From positions 1,668,501 to 1,732,500 of the forward strand of contig NZ_CP012154.1 of NCBI RefSeq assembly GCF_001187785.1: DNA of 64,000 nucleotides. The letters are read 5' to 3'. This document shows positions 2,848-56,832 of this stretch, one piece after another. The translations under genes were made by a program, and so were the position numbers. The stretch's first letter is position 1, and each line of letters begins with the position of its first letter. The DNA is from Wenzhouxiangella marina (GTDB taxonomy: Bacteria; Pseudomonadota; Gammaproteobacteria; Xanthomonadales; Wenzhouxiangellaceae). Under the pieces are notes generated by a model, which saw only the letters and a list, made by a program, of their open reading frames with translations, searched no databases and was not told where the DNA came from.

Positions 2848-3669
2848 ATGCCAGAACAGGATTCTCGTCGACCCAGCGTACTGATTACCGGTGGAGGCGC
2901 CGGTCTCGGCGAGGCAATGGCGCGGCGTTTTGCGGCGGCAGGCTACGCCGTCATGGTGGCCGATCTCGATGAGGATCGCGCCCGCGGCGTGGCCGAATCG
3001 CTGGGAGCGTCAGCCCGTTGGTTCGTGATGGATATCACCGATGAGTCGGCCTGGACTCGGGCCATCGAGGCCGTGCGGGAGGAGTTCGGTGGTCTCGATG
3101 TCCTGGTCAACAACGCCGGTGTGGCCGTCGGCGGCAGCCTGGAAGAAACCTCGATGGAGGATTGGCGCTGGGTCATCGAGATCGATCTGCTCGGTGTGGT
3201 GGCGGGCTGCAAGGCCTTTGCGCCGATGATGCGTGAACAGGGACGCGGGCACATCATCAACGTCGCTTCCTTCGCCGGTTTTGCCGCGGCACCCGGGATC
3301 AACGCCTACGGCACGGCCAAGGCCGGGGTCGTGGCCCTGTCGGAAATGCTCCGCGCCGAGTTGGCGCCGGCCGGGGTCGAGGTGTCGGTGCTGTGCCCGG
3401 CCTTCGTCAAGACGCGCCTCACCGAGACCATGCGTGCACCGGATGACAGCTACCAGCGCCGCGTCGAGCGATGGATGCAGAACTCGGGTGTGACCGCAGA
3501 GGACGTGGCCCAGACCGTTTTTGCCGCCGTCCGACGCCCTCGTTTCATGCTGCTCACCCATGGCAATACGCGCTGGGCCTGGCGGTTGAAGCGCTGGTTC
3601 CCCGAGCGTTACTACCGGATGCTGATCAAACAGGTGAAGAAGGCCGAGCGACGTGCCCGCCGCGGATAG
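2848..3669 (+). CDS. Short-chain dehydrogenase/reductase (SDR)
   Basis: This 273-residue protein is a classical SDR oxidoreductase using NAD(P). It has the Rossmann motif ITGGGAGLGEAMARR near the N-terminus, the NNAG motif near residue 88, and the catalytic Ser in NVASFAGF followed by Tyr and Lys in YGTAKAG. An acidic residue after the second strand (VADLDEDR) suggests NAD preference. The C-terminal 40 residues are very basic (WRLKRWFPERYYRMLIKQVKKAERRARR), which could favour membrane association. A ribosome site AGGAG lies about 13 bases before the ATG. The substrate cannot be deduced. It follows the zinc-finger fragment by 21 bases. Confidence 0.88.
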   Translation: MPEQDSRRPSVLITGGGAGLGEAMARRFAAAGYAVMVADLDEDRARGVAESLGASARWFVMDITDESAWTRAIEAVREEFGGLDVLVNNAGVAVGGSLEETSMEDWRWVIEIDLLGVVAGCKAFAPMMREQGRGHIINVASFAGFAAAPGINAYGTAKAGVVALSEMLRAELAPAGVEVSVLCPAFVKTRLTETMRAPDDSYQRRVERWMQNSGVTAEDVAQTVFAAVRRPRFMLLTHGNTRWAWRLKRWFPERYYRMLIKQVKKAERRARRG

Positions 3670-3743: not shown

Positions 3744-4844
3744 ATGAGCGAGCGTTTCTATCTCGAGAGTTCCAGGGGGCAGTCCCACCTTCCGCGGCGA
3801 CTGAACCTCGATGCGTTTCCGGCCACGGTCGGGCGGCACCCCGACTGCAATGCGCAGCTCAACGTCGATCGAATCTCGCGTCTGCATGCCCGCTTCGAGC
3901 TGCAGGATGGCGCCCTCTGGGTCGAAGACCTCGGCAGCACCAATGGCACCTTCGTCAATCACCAGCGCATTGCCGAGCGCACTGCGCTCAAGGTGGGCGA
4001 TGTCGTGCACCTGGCCGACCACGAGTTCCGCCTGATGCGCGAGGAGGGCATGGGAGGGCCGCGCGGTTCGGCCGCTTCGACCGAGACCGTCGTCGGAATG
4101 AGCGCCTTGCCCAGCGAGTTTCCCCTGCAGATGGCCGCCTTCTTCGATCTGCTCGAGCATGGCAAGGTCGAGGCCTTCTACCAGGACATCTGTCATGCCG
4201 ATGGCACGATCTATGGCCATGAGTTGCTCGGTCGCAGTCTGCACGAGGAATTGACCGAGGGTCCTGGGCAGTTGTTTGCCCTGGCCGCTGCATTGAACGC
4301 GGAGGTCAAGCTGAGTCGCCTGCTGCGCAGGCGCTCCTTCGAGGCCGCCGCCAGAGCGGGCCTGAAACGTCCCCTGTTCTTCAATAACCATCCAGCCGAA
4401 TGCGAGGATTTCGATGCGCTGCTCGCCGAGTTGGCAAGGTTGCACAACGATTTCCCGAGCCTGCGCCTGGTCTTCGAAGTGCACGAGGCCGCGGTCACCG
4501 ATCGCGACACGATGAGTGACGTGCGTCGGGAACTCGATCGGATGGGCATCGAACTGGCCTACGATGATTTCGGGGCGGGTCAGGCTCGTCTACTCGAGCT
4601 GGTGGAAGTCCCACCGGACTACCTCAAGTTCGATATTTCTCTCGTTCGGGGTCTGGAAGATCGGGAATCGGCCAAGTATCGCCTGCTCAAGACCCTCAAC
4701 GAACTGATCGTCGACATGGGCATCAAAACGCTCGCTGAGGGCATCGAGACCGAGGAAACCGCCGCACTCTGCAGGGAGATCGGCATCGATTTCCTGCAGG
4801 GCTTCCTCTATTCACGGCCTCGCGCCATCCTTCGATCGGCATGA
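3744..4844 (+). CDS. FHA domain-EAL domain fusion (phosphothreonine reader with c-di-GMP phosphodiesterase-type domain)
   Basis: This 366-residue cytoplasmic protein joins an N-terminal FHA domain (about residues 15-95) to a C-terminal EAL domain (about 125-366). The FHA part has the phosphothreonine-binding signature: GRHPDC, SRLHARF and STNGTFVN. In the EAL part the name-giving motif reads HELLGR, keeping the metal-binding Glu. The Asn (FFNNHP), the second Glu (FEVHE), the DDFGAG pair, the Lys of YLKFD and the AEGIE and LQGFLYSRP segments are also kept, so activity is plausible. The HHP-like NNHP is unusual. No transmembrane segment is visible. Its last bases overlap the cytochrome gene (ATGA), so translation is coupled. 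FHA joined directly to EAL suggests that kinase signalling controls c-di-GMP. Confidence 0.9.
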   Translation: MSERFYLESSRGQSHLPRRLNLDAFPATVGRHPDCNAQLNVDRISRLHARFELQDGALWVEDLGSTNGTFVNHQRIAERTALKVGDVVHLADHEFRLMREEGMGGPRGSAASTETVVGMSALPSEFPLQMAAFFDLLEHGKVEAFYQDICHADGTIYGHELLGRSLHEELTEGPGQLFALAAALNAEVKLSRLLRRRSFEAAARAGLKRPLFFNNHPAECEDFDALLAELARLHNDFPSLRLVFEVHEAAVTDRDTMSDVRRELDRMGIELAYDDFGAGQARLLELVEVPPDYLKFDISLVRGLEDRESAKYRLLKTLNELIVDMGIKTLAEGIETEETAALCREIGIDFLQGFLYSRPRAILRSA

Positions 4845-6361
4845 GCCGGAAGGATCGGAAGCCGGTGCGGGCTCGGCCGGCACGGCGACATCTGCGCTGG
4901 TTCGCCACGGTCCTCTTTTCCGTATTGCTGGTGGGTGGTGCCTGGTCCTGGTGGCAGGCGGGTCAGTTCGAGCATCGCTTCGATGCGGACTATGTCGGTT
5001 CGGCGGTCTGTGGGAACTGTCACACGATCATGCACGGCCAGTGGCAGGCGTCGCCGCACGCCAATATGGTGCGTCGCCCGGATGCCGGCTCGGTGGTCGG
5101 TGATTTCACCGAAGGGGAATTCAGGCTGCCCGAGGACAGCCCGGACCCGCTGGCCGGCGAAGTGGTCGCGAGGATGTTCCAGCAGGACGGGCGCTACTAC
5201 ATGGCGCTTCGCCACCCCGAGCGCGCCGAATTCGTCGGTTTCCCGATCCGCCAGGTGGTCGGCTACCAGTATCGCCAGGAATACCTGTTCCAGGAAGATG
5301 GCGGCGTGCTGAGGCGATTGCCGCTGCAGTGGTCGACGGAGCGACAGGAGTATTTCCCTTACTGGAATCTGCAGGAGGGGAGCGCTCAGACCCTGGACGA
5401 TTTGTGGGCCCAGATGCAGAGCGTCAATTCCGCCTGGAACCTCTATTGCGCACGCTGTCACGTGGTGAATCTCGAAATCCACGAGCGCAATGCGGCGCAC
5501 ACCGAGGCCAGGGTCAGCTGGCAGGAGACCGGCATCGGCTGTGAATCCTGCCACGGGCCGGGCAGCCTGCACGTGGCCTATATGGAGTCCTCGCCGATCA
5601 ACCGATTGGCCATGTTTGCCCGCAACCACTTCGAGGGCAAGCCCGTCGCCTACGTGGCCAACGCCGACAAGCTTCCGAAGGAACAGGCCATGTCGGTCTG
5701 CGCACGCTGCCACGGCGCCGACATCTTCGGCGCCCACCAGGACATCTACCGGCTCTACGAGCCCGGATACAGTCGAAGCGGTCGGATCAACGACCTGTCC
5801 GGGTATTTTCGCCAGGCGCCCCTCACGCCCGGTCGGACCTCACCCACGATCGAGGTCTGGCAGAACGGACGCCCGCGCGGCATCGGCATGCTGTTCCGCT
5901 CCTTGATCGAATCGGCCTGCTACCAGGAGGCCGAAGTTCGATGCTATGACTGCCACAATCCGCACCAGAACAAGGCCGAGGCGGTGCCGGGCATTCTGAC
6001 GGCCTCCGAGACTTCGAACGCCTACTGCGGTCAGTGCCATGGAGACATCGCCCGGGATCCAGGCGCTCACAGCCGGCACAGCGCCGGAGGACCCGGCAGT
6101 TTCTGCTATGACTGTCACATGCCGCGCCACATCACCAAGCTCAACACCGGCATCTGGCAGCGTGCCCGAACGCATGAGATGAGTTCCCTGCCGAATCCGG
6201 AAGACAGCGTTCGCTTCGGCCTCGATCAGGCGCCGAATGCCTGCAGCGATTGTCACGAAGACCTGACGCCTCAGGAACTGCTCGAGATCAGGACGCGTTG
6301 GTGGGGCGCGCCGGAGGCCGGGCCGGCGCCGGATGAGGGCGAGGTGCTGGCTCGTTACTGA
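4841..6361 (+). CDS. Membrane-anchored octaheme cytochrome c
   Basis: This 506-residue protein has a basic N-terminus and one membrane segment (about residues 19-40, RWFATVLFSVLLVGGAW), followed by a periplasmic region with eight CXXCH haem-binding motifs. In order these are CGNCH, CARCH, CESCH, CARCH, CYDCH, CGQCH, CYDCH and CSDCH. The first, near residue 57, sits in a VGSAVCGNCHTIMHGQW context typical of cytochrome c554-like multihaem proteins. It probably transfers electrons or reduces an unknown small molecule. Its ATG overlaps the stop of the FHA-EAL gene by 4 bases. No quinol oxidase subunit or haem lyase is adjacent. The pairing with a c-di-GMP enzyme is unusual. Confidence 0.88.
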   Translation: MSRKDRKPVRARPARRHLRWFATVLFSVLLVGGAWSWWQAGQFEHRFDADYVGSAVCGNCHTIMHGQWQASPHANMVRRPDAGSVVGDFTEGEFRLPEDSPDPLAGEVVARMFQQDGRYYMALRHPERAEFVGFPIRQVVGYQYRQEYLFQEDGGVLRRLPLQWSTERQEYFPYWNLQEGSAQTLDDLWAQMQSVNSAWNLYCARCHVVNLEIHERNAAHTEARVSWQETGIGCESCHGPGSLHVAYMESSPINRLAMFARNHFEGKPVAYVANADKLPKEQAMSVCARCHGADIFGAHQDIYRLYEPGYSRSGRINDLSGYFRQAPLTPGRTSPTIEVWQNGRPRGIGMLFRSLIESACYQEAEVRCYDCHNPHQNKAEAVPGILTASETSNAYCGQCHGDIARDPGAHSRHSAGGPGSFCYDCHMPRHITKLNTGIWQRARTHEMSSLPNPEDSVRFGLDQAPNACSDCHEDLTPQELLEIRTRWWGAPEAGPAPDEGEVLARY

Positions 6362-6382: not shown

Positions 6383-7378
6383 CTACCACCACATCGAGAG
6401 GGACAAGGCCCCGTAGTCCTGCCCCTGCGGTTGACCGATGAACTCCCTGCTACGCCAGACGTGCGTGTACGTGACCCGGAACGGCCCCTGGCTGAACACG
6501 AAGCCCCCGAAGACCTCGCCGACGAAACGCCGTATGTCCACTCCATCCCGTCCACCGATGGTGTTTCCTTCGAGAAAGAGATCGCGTCCGACCAGACGGC
6601 CTTCGGTGCCCAGGAACAGGTACCAGGTGCGTCCGTTGGGCTGGAAGAACGCGGATCCCGAAACGGCCGGGGTGATCCTGGGAGGACCGTAATCGGTCGT
6701 CAGGTTCGAGCCGATTCGGATGAAGCCGCCGCCGGTCAGGTGCGTGTAGGCGTTGCCGACGGTCACGCCACCGAAGGCATTGACGTCGAAGCGGTGGCCG
6801 TTGAGCGTGTCGAGCTGGTTGATCCGCCGGATGCGGTCATAGCCGAGGAGGAGCGTGGGCTCGTTCTCCAGCTGCTCGTTCCATCCGACCGGCCGACGGG
6901 TGTCGATCAGCCGATGAATCGTCTTCTGCAATTGCTTGCCGCCAGCGGCCGGGCCGGCGATCCCCAGGCCGACGCGGACCCGGTCCGCACCGCCTTCGTG
7001 AAGCGTGCCGGTGGCGAACATCAAATGGAGCCAGCCGGCATAGAGGCGGTCGTTGGGCGGAAACTCCGGGTTCTCGATGTCGGCTGGAGTGAAGATGTTG
7101 TGGCCGATGGAAAAGCTGTAGGGCAGGGTCTCGGCTTCCTCGAAACCCGGAAAGCGGCGGGCCACGGATTCCAGCCAGCTCGGCGGGGTTCGCGTCTGTC
7201 CCACGAGGCTGAGTCGCAGGCCGGAGGTGTAGTAGCGATCGCGGCCGGCAAACAGATCGTTTTCGTACTCGAACACCCAGAGTGCCGATCGTTCAGTCTC
7301 GTCACTCGCGTCGTCGGCTTGAACGAATGGCGTCAGGGCTGCGAGCAGCAGCCCAGCGGCCAGCGGCAGGAATTTCAT
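6383..7378 (-). CDS. lpxR: LpxR-like lipid A 3'-O-deacylase (outer-membrane beta-barrel)
   Basis: This protein of about 331 residues belongs to the LpxR family (formerly DUF2219), outer-membrane enzymes that remove acyl chains from lipid A. After a signal peptide (MKFLPLAAGLLLAALTPFVQA) comes the family hallmark FEYENDLFAGRDRYYTSGLR, carrying the Asn-Asp pair and Thr of the active-site region. The rest alternates hydrophobic and polar residues and ends in an aromatic residue (LSMWW), as barrels do. The ATG at 7378 has AGGAG 7 bases upstream; a GTG at 7393 that overlaps the peptidase stop is the alternative. It is coupled to the M13 peptidase gene. The assignment rests on the N-terminal motif. 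Confidence 0.82.
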   Translation of the reverse strand: MKFLPLAAGLLLAALTPFVQADDASDETERSALWVFEYENDLFAGRDRYYTSGLRLSLVGQTRTPPSWLESVARRFPGFEEAETLPYSFSIGHNIFTPADIENPEFPPNDRLYAGWLHLMFATGTLHEGGADRVRVGLGIAGPAAGGKQLQKTIHRLIDTRRPVGWNEQLENEPTLLLGYDRIRRINQLDTLNGHRFDVNAFGGVTVGNAYTHLTGGGFIRIGSNLTTDYGPPRITPAVSGSAFFQPNGRTWYLFLGTEGRLVGRDLFLEGNTIGGRDGVDIRRFVGEVFGGFVFSQGPFRVTYTHVWRSREFIGQPQGQDYGALSLSMWW

Positions 7379-7389
7379 TCGTCGGCTCC

Positions 7390-9438
7390 TCACCAGATGG
7401 AGACGCGCGCTTCCGGAGGGAGATAGAGCGCGTGCTCTTCAGTGACGCCAAAGGCGTCATACCAGGCATCGATGTTGCGCACCACGCCATTGACTCGATA
7501 CTGTGCCGGACTGTGCGGCCCCCGGATGAGACGGGCCCGAAGGGATTCTTCCGTCTCGATCGTTCGCCAGACCTGGCTCCAAGCCATGAAGAATCGCTGA
7601 TCACCGGTGAATCCGTCAAGCACCGGCGCCTGGCCGTCATGGTGATCTTCGAGATAGAGACGATAGGCATGGTGGGCGATGGACAGGCCACCCAGATCGC
7701 CGATGTTCTCGCCCAGGGACAGGCGCCCGTTGACGTTCATGCCCGGCAAGGGCTCGAAGGCGTCGTACTGGTCGGCGAGGCGTTGGCTGCGCTCATCGAA
7801 CTGGGCTCTGGACTGCTCGGACCACCAGTTGCGTAGTACGCCGGCGGCGTCCGAGCGGGAGCCCTGGTCGTCGAAGCCATGGCCCATTTCGTGGCCGATC
7901 ACGCCGCCGATGGCGCCGAAGTTGACGGCCGCGTCTGCCGCCGGGTCGAAGAAGGGCGCCTGCAGGATGGCGGCCGGAAAGACGATCTCGTTCCGCGTCG
8001 AGGAGTAGTAGGCATTGACCGTCTGCGGCGACATGAACCACTCCCAGTCCCTTACCGGTTCGTCCAGGCGGGCCAGGGAATCCTGCCAGCTCCAGTCCGC
8101 GAGACGATCCAGATTGCCGATCAGATCGTTGCCCTGCATCATGATCCCTGAGTAGTCGCGCCAGCGGTCGGGATAGCCGATCTTGGGACGGAAGGCGGCC
8201 AGCTTGGCCAGCGCCTCGCTTCGCGTTTCCTCGTCCATCCAGGGAAGCGCCTCGAGTCGCTCGCGGAAAGCGCGGCGAAGGTACTCGACCAGGGTTTCCA
8301 TCTGGGCCTTGTAGCTGGCGGGGAAATGGCGCTGGACATAGACCTGACCGACCAGTTCGCCAAGTCGGCTGCTGACGAGCGCGATGCCTCGCCGGTCGCG
8401 CGCGCGATCCTCTTCGACCCCGCCGAGGCGACGGTCGTGGAAATCGAAATGCGCCTGGCGCCAGGCCTCTCCGAGGTAGGGCCCGTGATTGTCCAGCCAA
8501 TGGAAGGCATGCCAGGCACGCCAGTCGTCGACCGACACCGAGCGGAACCACTCGGCGCTGGCCTGGACCGCGCTGTCGTTGCGCATCACCAGTTCGTCGA
8601 TGGCGTCGACGGAACGGGCCGAAAGCCAGTCAGACCAGGGAAAGCCCGGTGCGATGTCCTCTAACGCGGCGCGCTCGATCAAGCGATAGTTGGCCTCACG
8701 GTCTCGCTGCTGGACTCGACTCCAGTGGACTTCGGCCAGCGCCGTTTCCAGGGCCATGATCGCTTCGGCGCGACGCTGGGACTCATCGAGGCCGGCACGC
8801 TCAAGAGTGGCCTGGATGTAGTGGACATAGGCCGCGCGATGCTCGGGGAAGGGCGCATCCTCGCGCAGGTAATAGTCGCGGTTGGGCAGGCCGAGGCCGC
8901 TTTGCCCGATGTGGACCAGGTAGCGTTCCGGGTTGCCGGAATCCTGGCCGATGAACAGCGAAAAGATCGACGCGGTCCCGTTGCGGCTCATCCAGGTCGC
9001 GATGTCTTCATGGGTCTCGAGCGCCAGCAGTTGATCGAGTTCGGCACGGATCGGCGTCAGACCGAGGCTCTCGATGCGATCCAGGTCCATGTAGCTCCGG
9101 TACAGGGACGCGATCCGGACCTGGTCCTCCTCTTCAGAGGCCTCTGCATCCCGAATGATCGCCTCGACCCGTTCTTCGGCCAGCAGGGCCAACTCGGTGA
9201 AGGCGCCGAAGCGAGCGAAGCCCGGCGGCATCTCCGCTTTTGAAATCCAGCCTTCGTTGACGTAGGTGAAGAAGTCATCCCCGGCCTCGATCTGTCCAGC
9301 GAGCCCTTCGGTTTCGATGCCCCAGGCGCCGAGGGTCGCGGCCCTGGTCGTGGTCGCAGGGGGCGACGGACGGTCGGCGTGGACGCTGGAGATCGCAAAA
9401 AGCGTGATCAAGACGACAATGCAGGCTCTGAATTGCAC
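7390..9438 (-). CDS. M13 family zinc metallopeptidase (neprilysin/PepO-like), exported
   Basis: This 682-residue exported endopeptidase cleaves peptides in the periplasm or outside. It begins with a signal peptide (MQFRACIVVLITLFAISSVHA). The peptidase M13 N- and C-terminal domains follow. The NAYYSSTRNEIVFPAAIL substrate-binding segment, the zinc motif HEMGH (about residues 513-517, in VIGHEMGHGFDDQG) and the ENIGDLGGL motif (about 576) with the third zinc ligand Glu are all present. The C-terminus, PPEARVSIW, ends like neprilysins. The start is a GTG at 9438 with AAGGA upstream. The downstream lpxR-like gene overlaps its end, suggesting a small envelope operon. Confidence 0.92.
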   Translation of the reverse strand: MQFRACIVVLITLFAISSVHADRPSPPATTTRAATLGAWGIETEGLAGQIEAGDDFFTYVNEGWISKAEMPPGFARFGAFTELALLAEERVEAIIRDAEASEEEDQVRIASLYRSYMDLDRIESLGLTPIRAELDQLLALETHEDIATWMSRNGTASIFSLFIGQDSGNPERYLVHIGQSGLGLPNRDYYLREDAPFPEHRAAYVHYIQATLERAGLDESQRRAEAIMALETALAEVHWSRVQQRDREANYRLIERAALEDIAPGFPWSDWLSARSVDAIDELVMRNDSAVQASAEWFRSVSVDDWRAWHAFHWLDNHGPYLGEAWRQAHFDFHDRRLGGVEEDRARDRRGIALVSSRLGELVGQVYVQRHFPASYKAQMETLVEYLRRAFRERLEALPWMDEETRSEALAKLAAFRPKIGYPDRWRDYSGIMMQGNDLIGNLDRLADWSWQDSLARLDEPVRDWEWFMSPQTVNAYYSSTRNEIVFPAAILQAPFFDPAADAAVNFGAIGGVIGHEMGHGFDDQGSRSDAAGVLRNWWSEQSRAQFDERSQRLADQYDAFEPLPGMNVNGRLSLGENIGDLGGLSIAHHAYRLYLEDHHDGQAPVLDGFTGDQRFFMAWSQVWRTIETEESLRARLIRGPHSPAQYRVNGVVRNIDAWYDAFGVTEEHALYLPPEARVSIW

Positions 9439-9706: not shown

Positions 9707-10999
9707 ATGAGAAAGTCGGGGGAACCGCAGAACGAATCGGGCTCGATGTGGCAGACGGAGCTCATCATCCATCCCTCCGATCTGCAGATCGGGCATTTCA
9801 TCATTCGTCTGGACATTCCCTGGATCGAAACGCCCTTTCCCCTGCAGGGGGTCCTGGTCAACGACGCGAAGACCCGGCGCTGGTTCATGGATCACTGTCA
9901 GTGGGTGGTGATCGACTACTCGCGCAGTCCCAATAAGGTCCGCCCGAAACCCAGCCGCCTGAGCCACGAAGCAGCGCGAACGGCCCGTCAGTCCGATCCT
10001 CGACACCCGGTGAACAGCCTGCGGGGCTCGCGACTGGACGCGGAAACCGTGGGGGCCGCGCTCAAGGCCTACAGCCTGCTCGACGGGCAGGCGCGGCGCA
10101 TGATCAAGACCTTTTCCGAACGCGGGGTGATCGAGGTCAAGACGGCCGAGAAGGTGGTCGGGGAGCTGTCCGACTATCTCGAACGAAATCTCGCAGCCAT
10201 GGTCTGGCTGACCCGAATCAAGGATCGGGACGACTACACGGCACAGCACTCGATCAATTGCGCCATTCTCGCTCTGGGGCTGGCACACGCCCTGGAATGG
10301 CCTCAGGAGCAGGTCGAACGGGCTGGTCTGGCAGCACTGCTGCATGATCTTGGCAACGTGACCCTCGATCTCGATCTGCTCAACAAACCCGGGCGCCTGA
10401 CCGGCGAGGAATACCAGGTCATCAAGACCCACACGACCGCTGGCTACGAACTGCTGAACAAGGAGCACGATGTCCACCCCGACATCGCACTGGCCGCGCT
10501 CGAACACCATGAGCGCCCCGACGGGCTGGGTTACCCGAACGGCCGCAAGAGCGGCGAGATCAATCCGGTCTCGCAGCTGGTTTCGGTGGTCGATGTCTAC
10601 GATGCCGTGACCTCCGATCGAGGCTATCGACCGGCGCGTTCGCACCACGATGCGCTGGGGATCCTGTGGCGCGGGCGGGGACGCAAGTTCGATAAGGCCA
10701 TGGTCGAGACCTTCATCCATTTCATGGGCTGGGTGGCCCCGGGCACGCTGGTGCGTCTCTCGAACGGTGAGCTGGCGGTCGTCGAGGAAACCAATATCGG
10801 CCACGGCTTCTATCCACTCGTCCGTCTGCTGATTCCCGGTTCCGCCGGTTATCGTGCGGGCAAGCGGCTGGACCTGGCCGAGCTCAGGGATGAGCAGGGT
10901 CGGCCGAAGCTGCGCATCGCCGAAGTGCTTCCCGATGGCGCCCAGGGCGTCAAGGTCAAGTCGCTGCTGGTATCGGCACTGGATGAGGATTCGGGCTGA
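9707..10999 (+). CDS. HD-GYP domain protein (DUF3391-HD-GYP, c-di-GMP phosphodiesterase type)
   Basis: This 430-residue protein has an N-terminal DUF3391 region (LQIGHFIIRLDIPWIETPF) and a central HD-GYP domain (about residues 180-350), the type that hydrolyses c-di-GMP. The HD pair lies in LLHDLGN near residue 213, followed by LNKPGRL, HTTAGYELL, HHERPDGLGYPNG (the GYP region) and DVYDAVTSDRGYR. One change stands out: the usual HDxGK reads HDLGN, replacing the conserved Lys. A C-terminal segment of about 80 residues (LVRLSNGELAVV) looks like a small beta domain. The ATG at 9707 was chosen; another at 9748 (MWQTEL) is possible because no strong ribosome site precedes the first. The gene is divergent from the peptidase. 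Confidence 0.88.
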   Translation: MRKSGEPQNESGSMWQTELIIHPSDLQIGHFIIRLDIPWIETPFPLQGVLVNDAKTRRWFMDHCQWVVIDYSRSPNKVRPKPSRLSHEAARTARQSDPRHPVNSLRGSRLDAETVGAALKAYSLLDGQARRMIKTFSERGVIEVKTAEKVVGELSDYLERNLAAMVWLTRIKDRDDYTAQHSINCAILALGLAHALEWPQEQVERAGLAALLHDLGNVTLDLDLLNKPGRLTGEEYQVIKTHTTAGYELLNKEHDVHPDIALAALEHHERPDGLGYPNGRKSGEINPVSQLVSVVDVYDAVTSDRGYRPARSHHDALGILWRGRGRKFDKAMVETFIHFMGWVAPGTLVRLSNGELAVVEETNIGHGFYPLVRLLIPGSAGYRAGKRLDLAELRDEQGRPKLRIAEVLPDGAQGVKVKSLLVSALDEDSG

Positions 11000-40288: not shown

Positions 40289-41713
40289 TCAGTCCGATAG
40301 CGCGTCCTGGAGGCGATCACGCAGCTCGGCGGGCAGGGTCTCGTACTCCAGCAGGCTGCGCAGGGTCGTTCGCCGGCCCTCCGGGCTCAGACGACCCTCG
40401 CTGACGGCGCGATCGAGTTGAGCGAGGGCCTGCTCGACGGCCTGTTCGATCCCGCTCGTGGCCTCCCGATTTCCGGGGTGGGCTTCGAGGGCCATGTCGT
40501 AGAGCTGCAGGGCGGTATTCAGATCCCCCTGGGCGAGGAACAGCGCCGCATCGTCCAGGTTGCGGCGAATGCTGGCCTGCAGGTCGGCGGGCAGCGCCTC
40601 GAAGGGAATTTCCGGTCCGGGCTCGGGCTGGAAAAAGGCCAGATAGACGCCGACGGAAACCAGGGTCAGGGCCGTGATGATCCATGCCGTCACCCGCGTG
40701 GGTGAGGGGAAGAATCGCTTGAAAAAGGCGCGTGCGTCCTTCGGTCTGTCCGCCGCCTTCAGCGCCATGGCCGAGCGCAGGGTCCGCCACTCTCGTCCTT
40801 TCAGGCCGCCGGGTCGGCTGGGCTGGAGTTTCTGTTTGAGGGCCTCCAGGCCCGAATGCCAGTCGTAGGGGTGCTTTCCGCTGGCCATCTGCGCGACCAC
40901 GCAGCCGAGCGCATAGACATCGTCGGCCGGGCTGGGTGGCTTGCGCTGCAGCACTTCCGGGCTCGCGTAGGCCGGTGTACAGCCGGCGACGGCTTCTTCG
41001 ACGAAGTCGCGCCGCTCGCTCTGCCAGGCTCGGGCGATGCCGAAGTCGAGAATCTTGACCCGTCCATCTTCGAGCAGAAAGACATTCTCGGGCTTGAGGT
41101 CCGAGTGCACGATCCCGCGTTCGTGCGCGTAGGCCAGGCCCTGGCAGAGTTCACGGGTGATGCGGCGAAGCTCGGGGATCGGAATCGGCCCTTCTTCGAG
41201 GCGCCGTTCCAGGCCCTGGCCCCGCATGAACTCCATGGTCATGAAGATCACGCCGTCGGCGCGGTCGAAATCGAACACGGTGACGATGTTGGGATGCGCG
41301 AGCTGTTGCGCACGCCGGGCTTCGCGCTGCAGCGCCATGAAGGTGATGTCGGCATCCACGATGCCGGGCTTCAGGACCTTCAGGGCGATGGTCGTGTCGC
41401 GATCGTGGGCCTCTTCCTTGAGCAGGTCGGTGGCCTTGTAGACCGTGCCCATACCCCCGCGACCCAGCACGCCGAGGATGCGGAAACGATCGCGCAGTAC
41501 GCTGCCGACCTTCAGCTGGTCCTCCTCGCCGGGCACGTCGGTGCCAGCGGCAGGATCCGGCCGGGTCGGTGCGTTCTCCGGTGCCATCGCCTCGGTGGCC
41601 GCCGGATCGCGACCGAGCGGCTCGGTGGCCATGAACTCGGTGGCCCGATCCGGTGAGGATTCGGGTTTCAGGACTTCGGTGGCCGCAGGTTGGTCGGGTT
41701 TGTCTTTGCTCAT
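40289..41713 (-). CDS. Membrane Ser/Thr protein kinase with Thr-rich N-terminus and periplasmic C-terminus
   Basis: This 474-residue protein has a disordered N-terminus (about 1-75) with repeated ATE motifs (ATEVL, ATEFM, ATEPL, ATEAM), then a complete Hanks-type kinase domain: GRGGMGTVYK loop, IALKVLK lysine, HSDLKPEN catalytic loop, LDFGIAR and YASPEVL. One membrane segment (AWIITALTLVSVGVYLAFF) is followed by about 105 residues with a TPR-like unit outside. The spaced Thr residues in the tail are possible autophosphorylation sites. The ATG at 41713 was chosen. It follows hflD by 23 bases and precedes the caspase-like gene. Confidence 0.92.
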   Translation of the reverse strand: MSKDKPDQPAATEVLKPESSPDRATEFMATEPLGRDPAATEAMAPENAPTRPDPAAGTDVPGEEDQLKVGSVLRDRFRILGVLGRGGMGTVYKATDLLKEEAHDRDTTIALKVLKPGIVDADITFMALQREARRAQQLAHPNIVTVFDFDRADGVIFMTMEFMRGQGLERRLEEGPIPIPELRRITRELCQGLAYAHERGIVHSDLKPENVFLLEDGRVKILDFGIARAWQSERRDFVEEAVAGCTPAYASPEVLQRKPPSPADDVYALGCVVAQMASGKHPYDWHSGLEALKQKLQPSRPGGLKGREWRTLRSAMALKAADRPKDARAFFKRFFPSPTRVTAWIITALTLVSVGVYLAFFQPEPGPEIPFEALPADLQASIRRNLDDAALFLAQGDLNTALQLYDMALEAHPGNREATSGIEQAVEQALAQLDRAVSEGRLSPEGRRTTLRSLLEYETLPAELRDRLQDALSD

Positions 41714-55917: not shown

Positions 55918-56832
55918 TCAGCTCCACGCTTCCATGAGGGCGTCGGAAAAGTGCTTGGCGGTCTGGAACCGGCGCTCCGGTCGGCTCGCCATGGCGCGCA
56001 GCACGATGCGCTCGATCGCCGGCGTGATGCGGGGATGGCACTCGCTGGGGCGTTGCAGCAGAAACGTGTCGGGTTGCTGGATCTTGCGGACGAGAATCTT
56101 GCGAGCGTCTTCCTTCCGGACCGGCAGCTTGCCGGCCAGGAGCTGAAGAAGGATCACGCCGACGGCGTACAGGTCCGTGCGATGGTCCGTGTCCTTGGCT
56201 GAGGCCTGTTCCGGGGAGACGTAGATCGGCGTGCCGACGACCCGACCCTGCGCCGCGTATTCGGCCTGCTTGGCCTTGGCGATACCGAAATCGGCGATCA
56301 GGAGTCGGCCTCGACGGTTCTCGATCAGCAGATTGGCGGGTTTGAGGTCCTGGTGGATGACGCCGGCCTCGTGGGCCGCCTCCAGACCGGCAAGCATTTC
56401 CAGCGTCAGGCGCTGCACGTGGTTCATCGGCATCAGGCGGCGCGCCGGCACCGGGTGCCGTGCGAGCTTGCTCAGGATCTGGCGCAGGTCCTGTCCGTCG
56501 ACCAGCTGCATCACCTGGAAGAAGTACTCGTCGTCTTCGCCGGTGTCGAAGATGGTGATCAGGTTGGGATGATCGAGAATGGCCACCGTCTCGGCTTCGT
56601 CCCGGAACTGCTGCTGGGCCAGCTGGGTTTCGGCCAGCGCCTTGGGCAGCAGCTTGATCGCCACCTGCCGTTTCAGGGTGCGCTGGTAGCCGATGAACAC
56701 TGCGCCCATGGCGCCGCGGCCGAGTTCGCGCATGATCACGTAGTTGCCGAACTCGCGGCCGATCGCGCTGCTGTAGTCGAATTTCTTGATGTCCGACATG
56801 CCCGGCTGGTCCAAGACGCCCACTGAATCCAT
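55918..56832 (-). CDS. Cytoplasmic Ser/Thr protein kinase
   Basis: This 304-residue Hanks-type kinase has the glycine loop GRGAMGAVFIGY, Lys in VAIKLLP, catalytic loop HQDLKPANLL, DFGIAK and the YVSPEQAS and LYAVGVILLQLLAGK segments. The usual HRD is HQD, a non-RD form, while the catalytic Asp is kept. It is almost only a kinase domain, with no membrane segment or sensory part. The ATG at 56832 was used; a second ATG at 56799 (MSDIKKF) could be the true start because a TATAGT box ends one base before the first ATG. It is coupled to the GGDEF-like gene. Confidence 0.92.
   Translation of the reverse strand: MDSVGVLDQPGMSDIKKFDYSSAIGREFGNYVIMRELGRGAMGAVFIGYQRTLKRQVAIKLLPKALAETQLAQQQFRDEAETVAILDHPNLITIFDTGEDDEYFFQVMQLVDGQDLRQILSKLARHPVPARRLMPMNHVQRLTLEMLAGLEAAHEAGVIHQDLKPANLLIENRRGRLLIADFGIAKAKQAEYAAQGRVVGTPIYVSPEQASAKDTDHRTDLYAVGVILLQLLAGKLPVRKEDARKILVRKIQQPDTFLLQRPSECHPRITPAIERIVLRAMASRPERRFQTAKHFSDALMEAWS

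Follow-up and report, generated by a model that had tools for sequence, protein, structure and literature searches.

An FHA-EAL protein of Wenzhouxiangella marina, probably a kinase-controlled c-di-GMP phosphodiesterase, beside an apparently relocated octahaem cytochrome gene

The genome of Wenzhouxiangella marina, a single contig of 3,675,202 bases, encodes a protein in which an FHA domain is joined to an EAL domain, followed directly by an octahaem c-type cytochrome gene; both lie in the stretch of 64,000 nucleotides that we analyzed as a whole and refer to as the window. The explanation that we prefer, with a confidence slightly better than even, has two parts, namely that the FHA-EAL protein would be a phosphodiesterase controlled by kinases through Thr115, and that the octahaem cytochrome gene would have been relocated to its side independently. 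The FHA-EAL protein, which judging from its sequence belongs to a conserved family, is probably a soluble c-di-GMP phosphodiesterase, its activity being predicted, under Ser/Thr (Hanks-type) kinase control, and the two genes are probably independent things lying side by side, with no sign that their products work together. The features that bear on this are:

2848..3669 (+), short-chain dehydrogenase (SDR), kept as the 5' neighbor of the FHA-EAL gene in the closest clade (Pfam, synteny)
3744..4844 (+), FHA-EAL protein, 366 aa, ATG start, with FHA at residues 28-90, a linker at about 101-125 and EAL at 134-359 (Pfam, alignment of 33 relatives, AlphaFold2 model)
4044..4118 (+), residues 101-125 of the FHA-EAL protein (its linker), predicted to be disordered, carrying T-V-V-G with Thr115 (codon 4086-4088) (pLDDT, column entropy)
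4841..4844 (+), ATGA stop/start overlap (sequence)
4841..6361 (+), octahaem c-type cytochrome, 506 aa, with an N-terminal membrane anchor and 8 CXXCH motifs (motif invariance in 19 members, Pfam)
6383..7393 (-), LpxR-family outer membrane protein, convergent, the direct 3' neighbor of the FHA-EAL gene in relatives (Pfam, synteny)
9707..10999 (+), HD-GYP-type protein (DUF3391 and HD_5), a candidate c-di-GMP phosphodiesterase in the same conserved block (Pfam, synteny)
about 40826-41479 and 55957-56742 (-), two Hanks-type kinase domains, distant from the FHA-EAL gene

Within the 366-aa ORF at 3744-4844, residues 28-90 match PF00498 (E 1.2e-19; 71 bits against a cut-off of 20.7) and residues 134-359 match PF00563 (E 3.8e-37; 128.4 bits against a cut-off of 31.3), so the first-pass annotation was right to see FHA and EAL in one ORF. 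The AlphaFold2 model, with a mean pLDDT of 85, displays two confident domains. The FHA domain exhibits the phosphothreonine ligand pattern (GR, SxxH, SxNG), and its residues G30, R31, S45, H48, S65, N67, G68 and N72 are invariant in all 31 intact members of the alignment, over which conservation was counted throughout. The same holds for Q147, E160, R164, N214, E245, E248, D274, D275, K295, E332 and Q352 of the EAL domain; E160, N214, E245, D274, D275, K295, E332 and Q352 are all there in the window's protein, in agreement with the initial reading of its catalytic residues as kept. When searched with Foldseek, the EAL part of the model matches both active enzymes (PA3825 and RocR) and receptors (LapD). 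With RocR, PA3825, MorA and other solved EAL domains the protein has the EAL fold and the catalytic residues in common, but those proteins carry other sensor domains and loop 6 of RocR is unlike its own. Loop 6 of the FHA-EAL protein reads DDFGAGQARL, with QAR in place of the SS pair that four other EAL matches in the genome carry as in GYSS (canonical type DDFGTGYSS), which makes phosphodiesterase activity uncertain.

Orthologues of this protein (51-74% identity) are found in 23 of the 43 genomes of the family when the present one is counted, that is, in 22 others. At the thresholds used, and with the present genome taken in each time, a match occurs in 28 of the 398 sampled genomes of the order, 5 of 369 of the class and 2 of 398 of the phylum, low counts from which the FHA-EAL family appears to be uncommon outside Wenzhouxiangellaceae. 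Each of two distant class members has two FHA-EAL genes in tandem (L187/L191 of G513; L188/L192 of G516).

Between the well-folded domains, residues 102-124 have a pLDDT <50 in the AlphaFold2 model, and within this predicted disordered segment one position is conserved to an unusual degree. The Thr115 column consists of Thr in 28, Ser in 2 and Ile in 1 (a distant row) of the 31 members, with an entropy of 0.55 bits compared with 2.4-3.6 bits at the preceding residues 99-114. Thr115 is followed by V/I at +2 and, in 25/31, by Gly (G118) at +3, and E/D occupies -2 in 16/31. The linker thus shows one trait of a self-ligand FHA switch, a Thr conserved within a flexible stretch of its own chain; the residues around Thr115 depart from the hydrophobic +3 and Glu -2 pattern of DgcB, GarA and OdhI. 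Since L122, P123, F126 and P127 are also conserved, the linker motif extends further than a phosphosite alone, and it could serve for docking to some other surface. Two relatives (G051 and G073) keep FHA and EAL and lack the T-x-x-G motif. FHA-EAL paralogues with a dead EAL, in which E160, N214, D274, D275 and K295 are lost, keep FHA and a T-I-I-G motif. Such degenerate-EAL paralogues comprise one at position 2142835 of the present genome (L130), L131 and L132, and near those of relatives lie a response-regulator-GGDEF gene and a DUF6701/laminin-G protein.

A conserved Thr115 beside a phosphothreonine reader is suggestive of switching by a protein kinase, not of redox control. A Hanks-type kinase would phosphorylate Thr115, which lies in the flexible linker, FHA would then bind pThr115 of the same chain or of a partner chain, and this capture of the linker would change the geometry of the EAL dimer and hence phosphodiesterase activity. 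In this scheme, we infer the phosphorylation of Thr115, its binding by FHA, the phosphodiesterase activity and the direction in which it changes. More tentatively, and as something possible rather than probable, we propose that the linker of the FHA-EAL family supplies the phosphothreonine to which its FHA domain binds, that Hanks-type kinases switch c-di-GMP breakdown directly through it and that the dead-EAL paralogues are phospho-dependent partners or decoys.

Part of this scheme has precedents. In DgcB of Bdellovibrio bacteriovorus, FHA recognizes a phosphothreonine of the protein's N-terminal tail and thereby activates the fused GGDEF domain (PMC6733907). DgcB resembles our protein in having FHA fused to a c-di-GMP enzyme and, as a possible self-ligand, a conserved Thr that is not part of the folded domains, but it makes c-di-GMP, its Thr is in the N-terminal tail and its +3 residue is hydrophobic, in contrast to the EAL domain, linker Thr and Gly at +3 seen here. 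GarA and OdhI of Actinobacteria, which are PDB sequence matches to the FHA part of FHA-EAL, also have an FHA domain with a self-phosphothreonine switch, but they are devoid of a c-di-GMP domain, and their phosphosite, located in an N-terminal tail, has a hydrophobic residue rather than Gly at +3. No paper on an FHA-EAL fusion was found in the open-access literature, outside which most subscription journals fall.

Hanks-type kinases abound. The genome encodes 31 such kinase domains, in a genus that is rich in them; one strain of the genus is reported to be a predator of Gram-positive bacteria (PMC7691419). None of the kinase genes adjoins the FHA-EAL gene. Over 30 genomes of the genus, the median number of kinases is 18.5 where FHA-EAL is present and 5 where it is not (Mann-Whitney p=8e-6, uncorrected for phylogeny and completeness), and the difference among the 15 genomes of at least 90% completeness has p=0.003. 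Phylogeny, genome size and completeness all confound this correlation, which, because the groups are phylogenetically clustered and incomplete genomes undercount both, goes no further than being consistent with the switch. A TIVG pattern was detected in 1 of the 18 kinase activation loops extracted (the loop reads TIVGT; compare TVVG in the linker), a short match that may be due to chance. Mimicry of a kinase activation loop by the linker, seen in that one loop, therefore remains a lead only.

Two other readings keep the FHA-EAL protein at their center. The FHA domain might instead bind a phosphorylated partner, such as the activation loop of a kinase, and so bring a constitutive EAL domain to its target, with the linker motif as a secondary docking site; FHA ligand residues invariant in 31/31 members, the 31 kinases of the genome and, perhaps by chance, the short resemblance of TIVGT to the linker are all in line with this. 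Yet docking in trans alone leaves unexplained why Thr115 is retained in a variable linker and in the dead-EAL paralogues, and we consider it rather unlikely. Less credit still is given to the idea that the protein binds c-di-GMP without cleaving it and serves as a receptor or a regulator of the trigger type. Of the named EAL profiles in NCBIfam, its best match is RimA (NF052265), a trigger phosphodiesterase of Pseudomonas; QAR in loop 6 replaces the SS of most other EAL matches of the genome; and pseudo-EAL paralogues exist. However, the RimA match scores 88.7 bits, far under the cut-off of 430 and outside that family, the RimA model contains no FHA, and RimA itself has phosphodiesterase activity (PMC7343187). 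Moreover, the eight substrate, metal and catalytic residues examined are invariant in 31/31 members, which is unlikely without selection for catalysis.

A connection between the cytochrome and the FHA-EAL enzyme was raised by the first-pass annotation, which took the overlap between the FHA-EAL stop and the cytochrome start as a hint of redox-linked c-di-GMP control. The overlap is genuine (ATGA at 4841-4844), and the start call at 4841 is sound because homologues of the cytochrome begin at an equivalent M/V. In itself, such a four-base overlap is unremarkable, ATGA-type overlaps being present in 3 of the 17 codirectional neighbor pairs of long ORFs in the window (an approximate figure, from a mechanical ORF list). 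The annotation had also suggested searching for the architecture and its neighbors elsewhere, with a split outcome: the architecture is conserved (23 of the 43 family genomes), but the cytochrome partner is present at 0 of 25 loci of relatives. In fact, no ORF with at least two CXXCH motifs was found near FHA-EAL in those 25 loci, in wider regions or in class-level loci, no FHA-EAL or EAL relative lies beside the 18 cytochrome relatives, and the octahaem protein itself is encoded in just 4 of the 43 family genomes. In the closest clade, the gene order is btuF-like, MFS, SDR, FHA-EAL, lpxR (convergent), M13 peptidase, HD-GYP and response regulator, and the window has this same order plus the cytochrome, inserted between FHA-EAL and lpxR. 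That insertion is absent from every relative sharing the gene order, where FHA-EAL and lpxR meet 3' to 3'; in many of them, the FHA-EAL reading frame enters the 3' end of lpxR, leaving no gap at all.

Given that the pair is not conserved, an outcome that the annotation itself had listed as refuting its idea, redox coupling is unsupported, and a functional pairing of the two genes was rejected on the basis of synteny. A single functional unit made up of the cytochrome and the FHA-EAL enzyme is, in our estimation, very improbable, even with the ATGA overlap and one clade of orthologues in its favor. In this second Wenzhouxiangella clade (L117-L121, L134, L136), cytochrome c maturation (ccm) genes come next after lpxR, with a ferritin-like gene on the opposite side; it is the sole haem-related context of FHA-EAL that we saw, and it has no cytochrome structural gene. 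Against such a unit stand the synteny just described and a cytochrome family spread across several phyla with no conserved neighbor. Furthermore, c-type haems are attached outside the cytoplasm and, lacking a membrane segment, FHA-EAL is unlikely to be in direct contact with the cytochrome. At its present place, the cytochrome may nevertheless share a transcript with FHA-EAL.

The cytochrome shows a Lys/Arg-rich N-terminal stretch, one hydrophobic segment and eight CXXCH motifs, that is, the multiple CXXCH plus anchor or signal of a multihaem c-type cytochrome, which upholds its original description as an eight-haem membrane protein. It matches Cytochrome_C554, Paired_CXXCH_1 and Cytochrome_C7 in Pfam. 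Haem motifs and partial sequence similarity are shared with cytochrome c554 and paired-CXXCH proteins, among them longer multihaem relatives from the same taxonomic order (open frames of 600-800 aa), but the window's protein falls in a compact octahaem family of its own, about 460-540 aa long. This separate, patchily distributed family has 19 members (46-73% identity), among them Marinicella, Aliiglaciecola, Chloroflexi, Calditrichota and Planctomycetota; all eight CXXCH are invariant in them, and no neighbor is common to the members compared. Besides these motifs, the family (loci L081-L098) has six invariant and one nearly invariant histidines, and one of its haems may lack a second His ligand. 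An invariant GYQYRQ...RRLPxQxS...YWNxQE block lies between haems 1 and 2.

As for its origin, the cytochrome orthologues of three close relatives adjoin an MFS gene that is missing from the window's genome. The window's cytochrome is 73, 72 and 70% identical to these three, which are 84-88% identical among themselves, and the corresponding values for FHA-EAL are 74, 72 and 71%, and 83-90%; divergence of the cytochrome also tracks that of SDR and M13 (pairwise identities, four genomes). Cytochrome identities that match those of FHA-EAL point to long-standing vertical inheritance, with a change in where the gene lies. A recent foreign origin was rejected, since GC (64%) and GC3 (80%), like the orthologue identities, match those of the neighbors. 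The cytochrome gene thus appears to be as old in the group as its neighbors and new only in its present place, an old gene seemingly relocated into the gap between FHA-EAL and lpxR in the lineage of Wenzhouxiangella marina. In four relatives (L081-L083, L085), CATACT or TATACT lies about 7-10 bases 5' of the cytochrome start codon, as in leaderless transcripts, where the window has CATCCT. A promoter/terminator scan returned nothing clearly above chance.

The overlap with the cytochrome matters little in itself; it is an example of how gene relocation can create an overlap of four bases. If our reading of the FHA-EAL protein is true, it would tie Ser/Thr kinases directly to c-di-GMP breakdown and would represent the degradation-side complement of DgcB.
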